This document shows, piece after piece, positions 6,581-12,482 of a DNA stretch of 64,000 nt. A model generated the notes under the pieces. The model saw only the letters and a list, made by a program, of their open reading frames with translations. It was not told the origin of the DNA and did no database searches. The stretch is from Cytophaga hutchinsonii ATCC 33406 (lineage in GTDB: Bacteria; Bacteroidota; Bacteroidia; Cytophagales; Cytophagaceae). The DNA lies in the NCBI RefSeq assembly GCF_000014145.1, contig NC_008255.1, positions 249,501 through 313,500 on the forward strand. The letters are read 5' to 3'. The position numbers and the translations under genes are program-made. Each line of letters begins with the position of its first letter. Position 1 is the first letter of the stretch.

Positions 6581-6673
6581 AGAATTTTATTCGGTTAAAT
6601 ATTTGTATGTGAAGCACGTAAAATAAATTCATATATACAACGAAGAAATTTTACGAATATTTTTTTGTAAAGT

Positions 6674-6704
6674 TTTGCAAATAAAAAAAAAGGTCGTATG
6701 TTTG
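6674..6704 (+). promoter_or_regulatory. Promoter of tRNA-Val
   Basis: TTTG at 6674-6677, 19-nt spacer, TATGTTTG at 6697-6704: an exact match to the Bacteroidota -33/-7 consensus. The mature tRNA 5' end is at 6742. Confidence 0.75.
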
Positions 6705-6741
6705 TGCTCCCAAACGACGAGAGATTGTCAGAAAGGAAAAA

Positions 6742-6819
6742 GGGAGATTAGCTCAGCTGGTTCAGAGCACCTGCCTTACAAGCAGGGGGTCACTGGTTCG
6801 AACCCAGTATCTCCCACCA
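6742..6819 (+). tRNA. tRNA-Val (UAC anticodon), CCA encoded
   Basis: Complete cloverleaf. Acceptor GGGAGAT pairs with ATCTCCC (6809-6815). The D arm is GCTC..GAGC. The anticodon arm is CCTGC-CTTACAA-GCAGG with anticodon TAC at 6777-6779. The T arm is ACTGG-TTCGAAC-CCAGT. Discriminator A at 6816 and CCA at 6817-6819 are encoded. It is preceded by a consensus promoter and followed by degenerate copies of itself. Confidence 0.96.
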
Positions 6820-7006
6820 ACAGAAAGCCTTACAGAGATGTGAGGCTTTTTTGTTTTAAGGTTTTCAAGAGTATTGAGATTAGCTCAGATGCTCAGAGCA
6901 CCCCTTACAAGCAAGGGGCAGCGGACACTGCTGTATCTCACCAACAGAAAGCCTTATAGAGATGTTTTTTTTAGATTTTTAAATTTATGTTTTTCATATA
7001 CATTAT
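6800..7006 (+). repeat. Direct repeat, copy 1 (tRNA 3' end plus pseudo-tRNA block)
   Basis: From the tRNA T-arm (GAACCC at 6800) this ~205-bp block is repeated 501 bp downstream (7301-7506). The two copies are nearly identical to about 6963 and then diverge slightly through an AT-rich tail. The block holds the tRNA 3' end, a spacer containing AGAAAGCCTTACAGAGATGTG and its T-rich follow-up, and a decayed tRNA. Confidence 0.93.
6876..6943 (+). pseudogene. Degenerate tRNA-Val-like copy B1
   Basis: GAGAT (6876-6880) and ATCTC (6935-6939) keep an acceptor stem. TAGCTCAG and AGAGCACC keep the D arm. TTACAAGCA keeps the valine anticodon region. The T arm has been replaced by CAGCGGACACTGCTG, which can still fold but lacks TTCGAAC. 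It ends in ACCA. Not a functional tRNA by sequence. Confidence 0.8.
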
Positions 7007-7232
7007 TTTTTCTGCAAAAGTTTGTCGGAAATACATTGGACAAACTGAAGATTTAGCATTAAGATTGGAGCAACACAATTCTAATTTTTACAAATCTTAT
7101 ACAAATAATAAAGGGCCATGGGTATTAATTCATTTTGAGTGCTATGAAACTCGTTCAGAAGCCTTACGGAGAGAGAAATATTTAAAATCAGGAGCAGGTA
7201 GAGATTGGATAAAGCTGACATATTCTGTTTGA
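6987..7232 (+). CDS. Small GIY-YIG nuclease-domain protein
   Basis: An 81-residue single-domain GIY-YIG protein (UvrC N-terminal/UPF0213 type). The eponymous strands are FIYIIF (residues 3-8) and KYIGQTEDLALRLEQHN (14-30), with Arg at the usual catalytic position. FETRSEA-like CYETRSEALRREKYLKSG carries the conserved Glu/Arg helix. The family cuts DNA and is common as lone small genes in Bacteroidota. Its ATG lies inside the AT tail of repeat copy 1, and its stop touches a decayed tRNA copy. The gene is therefore bracketed by tRNA-derived sequence, as expected of a homing-type module. Cellular role unknown. Confidence 0.9.
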   Translation: MFFIYIIFSAKVCRKYIGQTEDLALRLEQHNSNFYKSYTNNKGPWVLIHFECYETRSEALRREKYLKSGAGRDWIKLTYSV

Positions 7233-7320
7233 GGAATTTGTAATTCAGCTGGTTCAGAACACCTGACTTACAAGCAGGGGCACTGTCCGCCGCGGCGGAC
7301 GAACCCAGTATCTCCCACCA
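7233..7320 (+). pseudogene. Degenerate tRNA-Val-like copy C with palindrome insert
   Basis: AATTCAGCTGGTTCAGAACACC, then TTACAAGCAGGGG, then CGAACCCAGTATCTCCCACCA reproduce the Val tRNA. The acceptor 5' strand has decayed. The T arm is interrupted: the bases between CACTG and CGAACCCAG are replaced by the palindrome TCCGCCGCGGCGGA (7286-7299). It starts directly after the GIY-YIG stop codon. Confidence 0.8.
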
Positions 7321-7506
7321 ACAGAAAGCCTTACAGAGATGTGAGGCTTTTTTGTTTTAAGGTTTTCAAGAGTATTGAGATTAGCTCAGATGCTCAGAGC
7401 ACCCCTTACAAGCAAGGGGCAGCGGACACTGCTGTATCTCACCAACAGAAAGCCTTATAGAGATATTTTTTTTATATTTTTAAATTTATGTTTTCGTATA
7501 CATTAA
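7301..7506 (+). repeat. Direct repeat, copy 2
   Basis: Second copy of the block at 6800-7006, offset by 501 bp, again running from the T-arm GAACCC through the pseudo-tRNA into an AT-rich tail ending ATACATTA. Near-identity points to recent duplication or gene conversion. Confidence 0.93.
7377..7444 (+). pseudogene. Degenerate tRNA-Val-like copy B2
   Basis: Same sequence as the copy at 6876-6943, carried within the second direct repeat. It keeps the same acceptor stem, valine anticodon region and altered T arm. Confidence 0.8.
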
Positions 7507-7878
7507 ATATTTTCTCTATAGATATTTGATCTCATGGAGATGTTTTTTTTCATATACTACATAAATGGTTAGATCTGACTATTTCATCTTTTTTAAGTGG
7601 TTGAATAATTTTAATGAATAACAAACCCGATACCGGTCATAGGTGTTTTTAGTTAACAATCGCTAAACAACATCGAACTTGCAGATCTTACGTATTAGTA
7701 TCTAAGGCGGGATGCAAGAAAGCGGCATGAATGTTATATGCTGTTCTTGGGCTATTAATCGCATCCAGAGAACCTTTATCACGGAAACTTATAATTTAGT
7801 ACTTGTGCTGGAAATAGCTATTTTGACCAATAATTATTACTTTTTAAAAATAATCTGTTGGCAAATCTTCAGGGCAGC
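7507..7878. other. Non-coding gap after the tRNA module
   Basis: About 370 bp of AT-rich DNA before the first PAS kinase. I see no ORF, RNA or strong repeat in it. It presumably carries the promoter of the kinase, but no clean consensus stands out. Confidence 0.5.
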
Positions 7879-9432
7879 ATGAATTTCCCATACGCCGAAA
7901 CCCCAATTGTAATGGAAGACGAATTAGAAAAATATAAAAGAGAAAATGCGGATTTAAAAAAGGAGATTGAACGGTTAAAAAATTCATCTGCATCAAATAC
8001 GTATAAAGTAATTTTTGAGGCATCTCCGGACATTCTTATTCAGCTGAATGCAGACTATAAAATCATTGTTATTCATATTCCCAATATTGAAGAGGAAAGA
8101 GTCAATACAGTTGTCGGCAAGGATATTTTTGATGTAACGCCTGAATATACTCACGTGAAAATGAAAAATGCGTTAACGTCTGTTTTTCGCGACGGAGAAG
8201 TTGTTAAATATTTTTCTGAAGGAGAAACAATGGGTTCGTACAGGTATTACGACAACTATTTATCTCCGATAAAAGATGCGGAGGGAAACATCACGACGGT
8301 TTATTTTAGGAGCAGGGATATAACAGCCCAAAAAATTGCCGAAAAAGTTTTACTGGATAATGAACGGAAATTAAAAACTGTTTACGAAAATTCCATTCAA
8401 TTTCTGACGGTATTGGATCTTGACCGTAAGTTCATCTGGTTTAATAAAAATGCCAGAGACAGAAGTCCTGCGGTTTTTGGTAAGGATCTTATTGTCGGAG
8501 AAGTGGCAGAAAGCTATATCGCAAAAGAATACAGGACAGGCTTTGTTGAAAATTTTAATAAAGCAGTAGCCGGTGAAACGATTACCTATACCAGAAAATA
8601 TGCCTTGAATAATGCTCCGTTCTTTTTAGAGTTGTCGCTTGCACCGGTTTATAATAACGACAATACCGTTGTAGGGGTAGCATTGACAGGAATCAATGTA
8701 ACGAAACACAAAGAGTATGAGGATTATTTAAAACGCATTAATCTGGAGCTGGTGCAGCAGAATGAAAAGTTAAATCAGTATTCCTACATTATATCACACA
8801 ATCTTAGAGGGCCTATAGCGACTCTGATGGGGCTTGTGCAGGTATTTGAACAGTGCAGGCATGAATCGGACCAGCTTGATGAGATTATGCGGCATGTATA
8901 CAAGTCTGCCGTGAATCTGGATTCGATTATAAAGGATCTGAATACGGTTGTTACGAATTCCGGACAGGAAGGAAATCTTAAAACTACCATCGATTTAAAA
9001 GAAGAGTGCGATGGAATCATTTTTCTGTTAGCGTCGCAGATAGAAAAAGCCAGCGCTGAATTTATTATTGACTTTGACCAATACCCGATACTTTTTTCTA
9101 TTAAAAGCTATATTCATAGCATATTGTATAATTTAATTTATAATGCTATAAAATACAGAAGGACACATGTTACACCTGTGATCCGCATTCAGAGTTATAT
9201 TGAAAATGATGGCATGCTATGCATTGAATGTACTGATAATGGCCTTGGCATAGATCTGGACAAATTCGGCAGCCGCCTGTTTGGATTTTATAAACGTTTT
9301 CACACACACGTTGAAGGAAAAGGCTTGGGTCTGCATCTGGTAAAAAAACAAGTTGAATTGCTCGGCGGCCGAATTGAAGTACAAAGTGTTGTTGATGAAG
9401 GTTCGACGTTTAGAATATTTTTACCTAAATAA
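7879..9432 (+). CDS. PAS-domain sensor histidine kinase (paralogue 1)
   Basis: Cytoplasmic sensor kinase of about 517 residues. A short coiled coil (EDELEKYKRENADLKKEIER) is followed by two PAS domains (about 40-150 and 165-285), then a HisKA dimerisation domain with phospho-acceptor His in YIISHNLRGPIATL. The HATPase has N-box YNLIYNAIKYR, G1 DNGLGID and G2 GKGLGLHLVKKQ. No receiver domain or membrane segment is present. ATG at 7879 has a purine-rich AGGG upstream; TTG at 7858 and ATG at 7912 are alternatives. No response regulator is adjacent. It is clearly paralogous to the kinase at 10968. Confidence 0.93.
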   Translation: MNFPYAETPIVMEDELEKYKRENADLKKEIERLKNSSASNTYKVIFEASPDILIQLNADYKIIVIHIPNIEEERVNTVVGKDIFDVTPEYTHVKMKNALTSVFRDGEVVKYFSEGETMGSYRYYDNYLSPIKDAEGNITTVYFRSRDITAQKIAEKVLLDNERKLKTVYENSIQFLTVLDLDRKFIWFNKNARDRSPAVFGKDLIVGEVAESYIAKEYRTGFVENFNKAVAGETITYTRKYALNNAPFFLELSLAPVYNNDNTVVGVALTGINVTKHKEYEDYLKRINLELVQQNEKLNQYSYIISHNLRGPIATLMGLVQVFEQCRHESDQLDEIMRHVYKSAVNLDSIIKDLNTVVTNSGQEGNLKTTIDLKEECDGIIFLLASQIEKASAEFIIDFDQYPILFSIKSYIHSILYNLIYNAIKYRRTHVTPVIRIQSYIENDGMLCIECTDNGLGIDLDKFGSRLFGFYKRFHTHVEGKGLGLHLVKKQVELLGGRIEVQSVVDEGSTFRIFLPK

Positions 9433-10667: not shown

Positions 10668-10967
10668 GAATAGCTATTCTGTTTAATAAATAATACATGT
10701 TGAATATACTACAAATAATTTCTTTGGCAAGTGAGGTGTTTATGCTACACGTGATTTTTTACAAAATATCAATATTGGAAAAAAAAGAAGTGTTCAAATA
10801 ATTTCATTTTATGTATTTGTATCAGGCAGTAATTCCGTATACCTAGATAATAACGTTTAATAGCTTAATATGATATTCAGGCTGTTTAATATTTGAATGA
10901 AACTTACAGCAGCACCTTTAAAAATCGAATAATTTTATATATTTGATTGTTTACCAGCGGATTCGAT

Positions 10968-12482
10968 ATGGATTTAAATACGGAAGATCTACATAAGGAA
11001 ATAGCAAGATTAAAAGAAGAAATAGAGCAGTTGAAAAAACCTGCTCAGGCGAATTCTTATAAATTGCTTTTGGAATATTCTCCGGATATCATTGTTCAGG
11101 TAAATAGAGATTATAAAGTTGTTATAGCGCATTTACCTGCTTATTCTGTAGAACAGCTGGATGCATTCAGAGGACAGGATGTTTTTGCACTGACACCGCC
11201 ATCCGTACATCATAAAATCCGTGAAGCACTGAGGAAAGTTTTTGAAACAGGAGAGGTAGTTGTCTACGAATCGGATGGAGAGATAAGAGGTTTACACAGA
11301 CATTATATTAATCACGTTTCTGCCATTAAAAATGAACAAGGAGAAATAACAAGTGCATATTTTGTTTGCAGGGAAGCTACGCTTCAAAAATTAGCTGCCA
11401 TGCAGAGTATTGATAGTGAACAAAAGCTTTCTGCATTGTTTGAGGGGTCTTCACAAATCATTTCATTGTTTGACAGAGATAGTAGATTTGTATGGTACAA
11501 CAAAGCTGCATATGATAAAAGTATTTTTCTGTTTGGTAAGTTTCTATGTGTAGGCGAACGTTTTGATTCGTATTTGAAGGAACAGTATCGTGAAGGTTTC
11601 AACGCAAATTTCGAACGTGTACTTAAAGGTGAAATTGTTTCTTATACACGCGAGTATACATATCAGGATAAACCATTTTTTCTGGAAATTATGTTACAGC
11701 CCGTTTATCAGAAGGATGAATTGGTAGGCGTTTCATTGATTGGAAATAACCATACAGAAAGAAAAGAATATGAAGATCAGCTTGAAAAAGCAAACAAAGA
11801 ATTGATTCAGCAAAATGATCAATTGAATCAATATTCGTATATCATTTCCCATAACTTGCGGGCGCCTATTGTAACATTGCTGGGCTTGATTACGATTTTT
11901 AATCAGGAGAAAAATAATCCGGCAGAAACAGAAGCAATTATTTCGCATATCACAAAATCAGCAAACCATTTAGATACGGTTATTAAAGACCTGAACAATG
12001 TATTAACAGTTACAGACAGACGATCTGTAATGGCTGAGGTATATCTGGATGTTGAATTTGATATTGTACGGTTTTTATTAAAAAATGAAATTGAAACAGC
12101 GCATGCAGTAATTAAATCTGATTTCTCTCAGTTGCCGGCAATACATTCTATCAAAAGCTATATTCACAATATTTTATATAATTTATTGTCAAACGCTATC
12201 AAATACAGGAAGCAGAATAAAGCCCCCGTTATTTCGGTTAAAAGTTATAAAGATGCTTCGGGTATGGTTTGTATTGAATTTACAGACGATGGAATTGGCG
12301 TAGATCTGGATAAATTCAGAGATAAACTGTTTGGCTTTTACAAGCGATTCCATTCACATGTGGAAGGAAAAGGGCTTGGGCTTCATTTAATAAAAAAACA
12401 AATTGATGCGCTGGAAGGGCGCATTGAAGTAGAGAGTATCGTTGGGCAGGGAACTACCTTTAAAGTACTGTTGCCTGAGTAA
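10968..12482 (+). CDS. PAS-domain sensor histidine kinase (paralogue 2)
   Basis: A cytoplasmic kinase of about 504 residues with the same plan as the kinase at 7879: N-terminal coiled coil (DLHKEIARLKEEIEQLKK), two PAS domains, HisKA with His in YIISHNLRAPIVTL, and HATPase (N-box YNLLSNAIKYR, G1 DDGIGVD, G2 GKGLGLHLIKKQ). The two are similar along their full length, so a gene duplication followed by insertion of two genes between them is likely. ATG at 10968 is preferred over the in-frame TTG at 10947. No adjacent response regulator. Confidence 0.93.
   Translation: MDLNTEDLHKEIARLKEEIEQLKKPAQANSYKLLLEYSPDIIVQVNRDYKVVIAHLPAYSVEQLDAFRGQDVFALTPPSVHHKIREALRKVFETGEVVVYESDGEIRGLHRHYINHVSAIKNEQGEITSAYFVCREATLQKLAAMQSIDSEQKLSALFEGSSQIISLFDRDSRFVWYNKAAYDKSIFLFGKFLCVGERFDSYLKEQYREGFNANFERVLKGEIVSYTREYTYQDKPFFLEIMLQPVYQKDELVGVSLIGNNHTERKEYEDQLEKANKELIQQNDQLNQYSYIISHNLRAPIVTLLGLITIFNQEKNNPAETEAIISHITKSANHLDTVIKDLNNVLTVTDRRSVMAEVYLDVEFDIVRFLLKNEIETAHAVIKSDFSQLPAIHSIKSYIHNILYNLLSNAIKYRKQNKAPVISVKSYKDASGMVCIEFTDDGIGVDLDKFRDKLFGFYKRFHSHVEGKGLGLHLIKKQIDALEGRIEVESIVGQGTTFKVLLPE

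Follow-up and report, generated by a model that had tools for sequence, protein, structure and literature searches.

A single-domain GIY-YIG nuclease gene and partial tRNA copies beside a tRNA-Val gene of Cytophaga hutchinsonii: a probable member of a family of homing-like, tRNA-gene-specific elements in Bacteroidota

Introduction

SegB of phages T4 and T6 is a free-standing GIY-YIG homing endonuclease encoded in the phage tRNA cluster (PMC13096335, PMC2988022). Passages of the former source state that SegB cuts within tRNA genes, with the motif RAWTSGAAC, and that in T6 it is needed for tRNA amplification, a nuclease- and recombination-dependent process acting on a tRNA-plus-segB segment (PMC13096335). 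We read the reverse complement of this motif, GTTCSAWTY, as T-arm-like, and by eye the T arm of the tRNA-Val gene studied here matches it at 8 of 9 positions. Judged from those passages, SegB shares with the elements described below the GIY-YIG domain, the free-standing gene, the position beside tRNA genes of many isotypes and the segmental amplification of tRNA plus nuclease. Unlike phage-borne SegB, the present elements are chromosomal, encode a single domain of ∼80 aa, form isotype-tied lineages, carry pseudo-tRNAs with palindromic arms and are inserted at tRNA 3′ ends.

Integrative elements that target tRNA genes by a tyrosine recombinase insert at the 3′ end, restore the tRNA and leave a displaced 3′ repeat. 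These properties are shared by the elements described here, but the inserts are only a few hundred bp long and no integrase gene was present in the occupied inserts examined. Among GIY-YIG proteins, the closest solved relatives by sequence are the small UPF0213/COG2827 proteins, which are of similar size. The domain is also related to that of the structure-specific SLX1 nucleases (E 1.4e-8 with a 22-member profile), so cutting of hairpin or cruciform DNA is conceivable; SLX1 proteins are larger host repair enzymes and are not known to be tied to tRNA genes. REP palindromes are mobilised by RAYT transposases (PMC3733652). The likeness lies in a nuclease gene flanked by short palindromes and in the existence of solo copies; the difference is that the protein here is of the GIY-YIG type and that the palindromes are rare, many of them lying within tRNA copies. 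RAYTs are HUH enzymes.

In the 2006 survey of the GIY-YIG superfamily, the passages that mention tRNA are silent on tRNA-gene neighbourhood (PMC1564403). Among the literature matches listed, which covered few subscription papers, such chromosomal elements were not found described in titles or abstract openings, and the element provisionally appears to be undescribed.

Results

Organization of the tRNA-Val locus

The window analysed here is a stretch of 64,000 nucleotides of Cytophaga hutchinsonii ATCC 33406 (NC_008255.1, positions 249,501 to 313,500), whose genome is one contig of 4,433,218 bases. The features of the locus, in window coordinates, are as follows.

6674..6704, + strand: promoter-like sequence TTTG-N19-TATGTTTG 5′ of tRNA-Val, which we take to be the Bacteroidota-type promoter consensus (by eye; the sigma-70 scan covers another promoter type)
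6742..6819, + strand: intact tRNA-Val, anticodon TAC (tRNA call; Rfam tRNA, 71.6 bits)
6799..6993, + strand: direct repeat, copy 1, 195 nt, beginning at tRNA position 58 (repeat alignment)
6822..6851, + strand: intrinsic terminator-like hairpin 3′ of the intact tRNA-Val (terminator scan)
6874..6943, + strand: pseudo-tRNA B1, cloverleaf kept, stems altered yet paired, T loop changed
6987..7232, + strand: GIY-YIG nuclease gene, 81 aa, single domain (PF01541, E=3.4e-17)
7245..7320, + strand: pseudo-tRNA C, corresponding to tRNA positions 12–78, acceptor 5′ strand lost (alignment)
7285..7300, + strand: perfect 16-bp palindrome GTCCGCCGCGGCGGAC in the T arm of copy C
7300..7494, + strand: direct repeat, copy 2, 195 nt
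7323..7352, + strand: terminator-like hairpin, copy 2, 3′ of pseudo-tRNA C (terminator scan)
7375..7444, + strand: pseudo-tRNA B2, folded sequence the same as that of B1
about 7488..7506, + strand: remnant of another, deleted copy of the nuclease gene, start only (by eye)

The original prediction was of an intact tRNA-Val followed by a small GIY-YIG gene and three decayed tRNA copies. The tRNA, the gene and the places of B1 and B2 were confirmed. A ∼205-bp block (6800–7006, again at 7301–7506) starting in the T arm had also been described; the repeat and its start were recovered, but the far ends had been set slightly past the point where the ungapped match breaks down. The intervals 6799–6993 and 7300–7494 were 99% identical over 195 nt and were 501 bp apart from start to start. 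The first base of the repeat corresponds to tRNA position 58, within the T arm, and the repeat extends a few bases into the start of the nuclease gene. Because a nuclease-gene start follows B2, the block was read as two tandem copies of a 501-bp unit, the second of them truncated.

Decay was an adequate description of copy C, which was 78% identical to tRNA-Val positions 12–78 in the alignment and gave no cloverleaf in the folding test (z −1.7). It was too simple for B1 and B2, whose changed stems still pair: their fold was a cloverleaf of −25.3 kcal/mol (z −3.2), with pairing kept despite changes in the acceptor, anticodon and T stems. B1 and B2 thus look unlike products of random decay; being near-identical copies, they were counted as one instance and not two. 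The T arm of copy C was interrupted by GTCCGCCGCGGCGGAC, which had exact matches at two places only in the genome. Three points went beyond the original prediction: the palindromes, the cloverleaf kept by B1/B2, and the reading of the tandem copies as one repeating unit. A search for a group I intron with Rfam at E up to 1 found only tRNA in 6600–7600.

The tRNA-Val locus was compared in the 3 genomes of the window's genus. Besides the window nuclease, it contained what by eye is a decayed nuclease in G001; in G002, where two contigs had to be combined to read the locus, it contained a nuclease with 38% identity to that of the window, which grouped with Val-lineage proteins. The window genome carried a second nuclease gene with an internal stop (L003, G000:C1:2237426-2240596). 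It adjoined a tRNA-Pro/Arg/Pro/Ser cluster, in which both tRNA-Pro genes were identical.

Association with tRNA genes in other genomes

With the window protein alone as query, 24 of 59 genomes matched, the window's own included. At the 29 other loci found, two of which overlap, a tRNA was present in the flanks (up to 1.5 kb) in 20 cases, 18 of them on the same strand. The nine loci without tRNA include five relatives (L024–L028) that by eye looked like classical UPF0213 proteins and had a tRNA nearby in none of the five cases. A profile of 22 sequences (A1), mostly tRNA-adjacent but including L010 and L014 without tRNA nearby, matched 251 of 395 Bacteroidota genomes at E ≤ 1e-6, a count that includes genomes matching only via the classical-looking type without tRNA (G030 and G047, with L024 and L025). 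Some genome contained at least 14 matches, per-genome counts being lower bounds.

The association was examined at 120 loci, the window included, which were the best-scoring among the places listed and not a random draw. A tRNA was found within 500 bp at 104 of them, and the nearest one shared the strand of the nuclease gene at all 104. This favours the original prediction, which required an association of the subfamily with tRNA genes in other genomes. The tRNA-adjacent loci came from 70 genomes with 51 genus codes and 17 family codes. In a subset of 110 loci, 96 had a tRNA within 500 bp, which was on the same strand in every case (96/96), upstream in 75 and downstream in 21, with a median gap of 45 bp; tRNA density was 1.06/kb within 500 bp versus about 0.01/kb at 1–3 kb (4 tRNAs in about 311 kb). 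A nearest tRNA on the opposite strand was observed at L012 and L018, both outside the 120. Listed places that lay inside loci found before are additional to the 120: at G051 (within L011/L032) the tRNA was on the same strand, and at G046 (within L018) it was on the opposite one. Chance or assembly artefact was rejected, the same anatomy being found at more than 100 loci, several of them in single-contig genomes (G242, G289, G346).

Sixteen of the 120 loci had no tRNA. Nine of these were near a contig end (within 206 bp), and seven had none despite long enough flanks (L059, L095, L096, L097, L107, L119 with a 482-bp flank, and L256). At L095 (2450–3172) and L096 (2492–3214), from two genomes, the GIY-YIG gene was located 22 bp from an RNase P RNA gene on the same strand. 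rRNA neighbours at tRNA-less loci were discarded as a candidate, as Rfam gathering thresholds gave only RNase P RNA, in 2 of 15 sources. A related nuclease group (L097, L107, L111, L136, L014 and L010), of which several members end in LKTAWGKRYI, had no tRNA found nearby, the flanks of L111 and L136 being cut off by contig ends.

On named public contigs, a set that overlaps the profile-searched genomes, tRNA-Met was found on the same strand at 20 of 26 Met-lineage relatives with ≥56% identity, from Balneola, Gracilimonas, Niastella, Pedobacter, Alkaliflexus, Moheibacter and others. Twelve relatives were more distant: the six from Clostridia and Psychrobacillus had no tRNA, and a tRNA was present at three of the other six.

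Clustering of nuclease lineages by tRNA isotype

When 150 nuclease proteins were placed on a tree, which used 74 columns only and had many unresolved forks, the isotype of the adjacent tRNA required 32 changes, compared with a mean of 86.9 for shuffled labels. The same number of changes was obtained with one nuclease per locus (32, shuffled 76.5). Met and Cys formed one group each on the 150-protein tree, and the other isotypes needed 2 to 7 changes. The nearest relative from another genus had the same isotype in 74 of 107 cases, the null mean being 11.1 and the maximum 24 in 2000 shuffles. These results showed that nuclease lineages are clustered by tRNA isotype.

Occupied and empty tRNA-Ala loci

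The tRNA-Ala locus of one genome was searched in 150 congeners, of which 88 matched, and the best 30 loci were examined. Twelve of these, the query itself among them, were occupied and 18 were empty. In the occupied form an insert was present, with the tRNA-Ala 3′ end repeated directly on its two sides. Where the downstream copy was intact, the order was tRNA, terminator, nuclease, tRNA positions 17–27, palindrome and tRNA positions 45–75. A downstream tRNA fragment was found at 11 of the 12 occupied loci and at none of the 18 empty ones (Fisher p=2e-7), and a downstream repeat with positions 45/46–75 at 9 of 12 versus 0 of 18 (Fisher p=2e-5); at L174 the downstream tRNA copy was lost. Behind the pseudo-tRNA, a terminator of another kind, mostly the kind seen at empty loci, was present in 8 of the 12 occupied loci (by eye). 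At L171, L184 and L190 the first terminator was repeated there. The nuclease frame was split in two of the 12.

The original prediction implied that empty loci in relatives should not show the repeats without the nuclease. This held for the downstream repeat (0 of 18) but not for the upstream 5′ partial copies, which were present at 11 of 12 occupied and also at 4 of 18 empty loci. We read those at the empty loci as scars of past occupation.

Occupancy required 8 changes on a flanking-gene tree of the 30 loci, the mean for shuffled labels being 9.6; since its clustering was no greater than that of shuffled labels, gains were not separable from losses. The identity of the nucleases was about the same as that of the flanking genes in most tRNA-Ala pairs, with L190, where the nuclease identity was higher, as the main exception. 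This pointed mainly to vertical descent with repeated loss, and not to frequent transfer between species. It was also found that the intact tRNA-Ala was letter-for-letter identical across the two states (for example, 5 and 6 loci shared one allele), indicating that the presumed site was not removed from the functional tRNA-Ala, unlike in classical homing. The alteration of the site in the occupied allele, expected of a homing endonuclease, was absent within the tRNA gene, and the site might extend beyond the tRNA.

Partial tRNA copies, palindromes and tandem arrays

Partial copies of the adjacent tRNA (E up to 0.05) were detected at 93 of the 96 tRNA-adjacent loci of the 110-locus subset, with a fragment of at least 15 nt at 87 and of at least 20 nt at 59; none was detected at this threshold at L044, L108 and L125. 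The 54 distinct copy junctions were located in the T arm (23), the D arm (11), the anticodon arm (11), the span from anticodon to T arm (6) and elsewhere (2), with 1 unplaced, and at 37 of the 54 there was a hairpin whose stem measured 6 bp or more. Break points recurred within lineages: TTC^RA in the T loop at eight Ser loci, 57|61 in Asn, 51|60 in Asp, 38|57 in Cys, 27|45 in Ala and 21|22 in Arg. The copies were more than decayed tRNAs: an arm was often replaced or split by a palindrome, at places that were lineage-specific. A cut in the T arm, as originally suggested, would fit the window and many junctions at Ser, Asn and Asp loci, but the altered arm of other lineages was the D loop or the anticodon arm.

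Perfect GC-rich hairpins occurred at 5.45/kb between nuclease copies, at 1.96/kb within 300 bp (a value that includes natural terminators) and at 0.13–0.18/kb farther off. The palindrome sequences varied between lineages. For one palindrome pattern, 0–18 sites per genome were counted in 20 chosen genomes, five of which had any; a generic dispersed repeat was unsupported for this pattern in these genomes. Palindrome-armed pseudo-tRNAs with no nuclease in the examined stretch were observed beside tRNA-Glu, Arg, Asp and Ala-tgc, and the same pattern was also seen at seven places without a tRNA nearby. At L197 (1871–2558), 11 palindrome-bearing units derived from tRNA-Asn, with a period of about 67 bp, were located 5′ of an intact tRNA-Asn, and no nuclease gene was found within the 4.5 kb examined.

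At 31 of the 110 loci the nuclease matched in two or more places, each over at least 150 nt, i.e. in tandem arrays. The array unit was nuclease plus pseudo-tRNA, for example five 315-bp units at a tRNA-Asp, and the tandem units repeated almost exactly. Two tRNAs with the same anticodon were found nearby at four of the 110 loci. ARAGORN calls some pseudo-tRNAs tRNAs (the ‘Lys’ of L020 is a tRNA-Val copy by sequence).

Nuclease protein

Residues Y5, Y16, G18, R26, N31 and E63, which we assume to be the catalytic ones, were each conserved in at least 90% of 22 sequences. The 22-member profile, with the window protein first, gave UPF0213/COG2827-like structures as the best matches (PDB 1zg2, E 2.6e-14; 1ywl, E 1.1e-13), the similarity to UPF0213/COG2827 proteins spanning the whole domain. 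Among ten intact nuclease genes of the tRNA-Ala locus the median dN/dS was 0.07, with 18 of 45 pairs usable and the rest saturated; four pairs with dS <1 gave values of 0.01–0.07. The nuclease protein is under purifying selection.

The PHROG match of the nuclease to homing endonucleases was weak (E=3.5e-4). Pattern-based scans of viral contigs with two family members found no relative, a search of a phage collection gave six weak matches, all below 60% identity, and a search of plasmids yielded 11 matches that were weak and came from outside Bacteroidota. A phage origin was rejected, because the viral contig scans with the two members were empty and the phage-collection matches weak.

Discussion

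The nuclease genes lie on the same strand as the adjacent tRNA, cluster by isotype, form insertions bounded by tRNA repeats, build tandem arrays and encode a protein under selection. We consider it probable that the tRNA-Val locus belongs to a large family of Bacteroidota elements that are minimal, free-standing, homing-like and specific for tRNA genes, similar to SegB, with putative cleavage activity and mobility. The predicted tRNA-targeting homing module was partly supported, by the polymorphism of occupied and empty loci among other results, but the identical tRNA alleles, the mostly vertical descent, the palindrome-armed pseudo-tRNAs without nuclease, the seven loci that lack a tRNA despite long enough flanks and the two opposite-strand cases count against it.

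The unit of such an element would be a single-domain GIY-YIG gene plus a pseudo-tRNA that derives from the tRNA next to it and in which one arm is often palindromic. The nuclease would break its own tRNA gene, or a structure within that gene, and repair by recombination via short tRNA homologies would copy the unit in while one functional tRNA is kept. By analogy with SegB in phage T6, the same repair through tRNA homology may expand and contract the arrays. Recombination between the tRNA 3′ repeats would delete the unit and bring back an empty site, where 5′ pseudo-tRNAs would in some cases stay behind as scars. In the non-functional copy, the cut zone is probably marked or inactivated by the palindrome, which might be a cut site that has been disabled, a recognition site belonging to the element or an RNA structure.

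Much of this could in principle arise passively, from an old, vertically inherited host nuclease gene beside tRNA genes, with unequal crossing-over at short tRNA repeats as the source of tandem copies and deletions and no cutting by the nuclease. In most tRNA-Ala pairs nuclease and flank identities agree, loss of the insert is the expected product of recombination between tRNA 3′ repeats, and the intact tRNA alleles are the same in both states. We nevertheless regard this as unlikely, because isotype-preferring lineages at many tRNA genes across genera, a same-strand bias of 104/104, up to at least 14 matches per genome and recurrent break points are not readily explained by it. A pair of nuclease and pseudo-tRNA kept by selection as useful to the host, e.g. 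for tuning of tRNA dosage or as a decoy against tRNA-cleaving toxins, seemed to us decidedly unlikely. The occupancy is patchy within one genus, nuclease frames are split at 2 of the 12 occupied loci, and downstream pseudo-tRNAs generally lack the 5′ acceptor strand (23 selected loci, by eye). Such a use would agree, on the other hand, with a dN/dS of about 0.07, with the compensated stems in the cloverleaf of B1/B2 in the window, with the pseudo-tRNAs directly 5′ of the tRNA in several Ala loci and with the array of 11 tRNA-Asn-derived units without nuclease in the stretch examined.

It might also be imagined that what moves is the palindrome, mobilised by the GIY-YIG protein in the way that a RAYT mobilises REP, with tRNA arms as hairpin-like landing sites. 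The density of perfect GC-rich hairpins (5.45/kb between copies and 1.96/kb within 300 bp, compared with 0.13–0.18/kb farther off) and the solo palindrome-armed pseudo-tRNAs are in line with this idea, which is hypothetical as regards mobility and was judged very unlikely: the tested pattern was rare (0–18 sites per genome, 5 of 20 genomes) and formed no high-copy repeat, and palindrome sequences differ between lineages. That ordinary tRNA-targeting integrases left att-site scars which flank the nuclease gene by chance is hardly credible and was disfavoured. The direct repeats of tRNA 3′ ends do resemble att sites, but the inserts in the 12 occupied Ala loci consisted of terminator, nuclease and pseudo-tRNA only, once or twice; furthermore, palindromes and tRNA parts from the 5′ side or the interior do not resemble att sites, and the tandem units are almost exact.

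Within the reading of the locus as a SegB-like, homing-like element, we tentatively suggest, with slightly less than even confidence, a new class of minimal mobile element that would consist of a single-domain GIY-YIG gene and a palindrome-armed pseudo-tRNA within a few hundred bp. It would have one lineage per tRNA (once RNase P RNA), nuclease-bearing and solo forms and a presence in many Bacteroidota, and would undergo gain, amplification, decay and precise loss while the host tRNA is spared. If so, the swap of a tRNA arm for a palindrome would be a new kind of DNA rearrangement, and selfish tRNA-gene-specific nucleases, known from phage tRNA clusters, would extend to the chromosomes of many Bacteroidota. 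The odd partial tRNA copies there, and contig breaks at such loci, would be explained, and a large natural set of very small nucleases with distinct tRNA-gene preferences would be at hand. Whether a GIY-YIG protein of ∼80 residues reads tRNA-gene structure or sequence thereby becomes testable.

Two minor observations were made at the margins of these data. On a Patescibacteria-labelled contig (L248, 1501–1806), a related nuclease match ended about 11 bp before a tRNA-Asn. In the window, 3′ of the tRNA-Val locus, two similar sensor-kinase-like genes (7858–9432 and 10947–12482) were present, which by eye are apparently paralogues.
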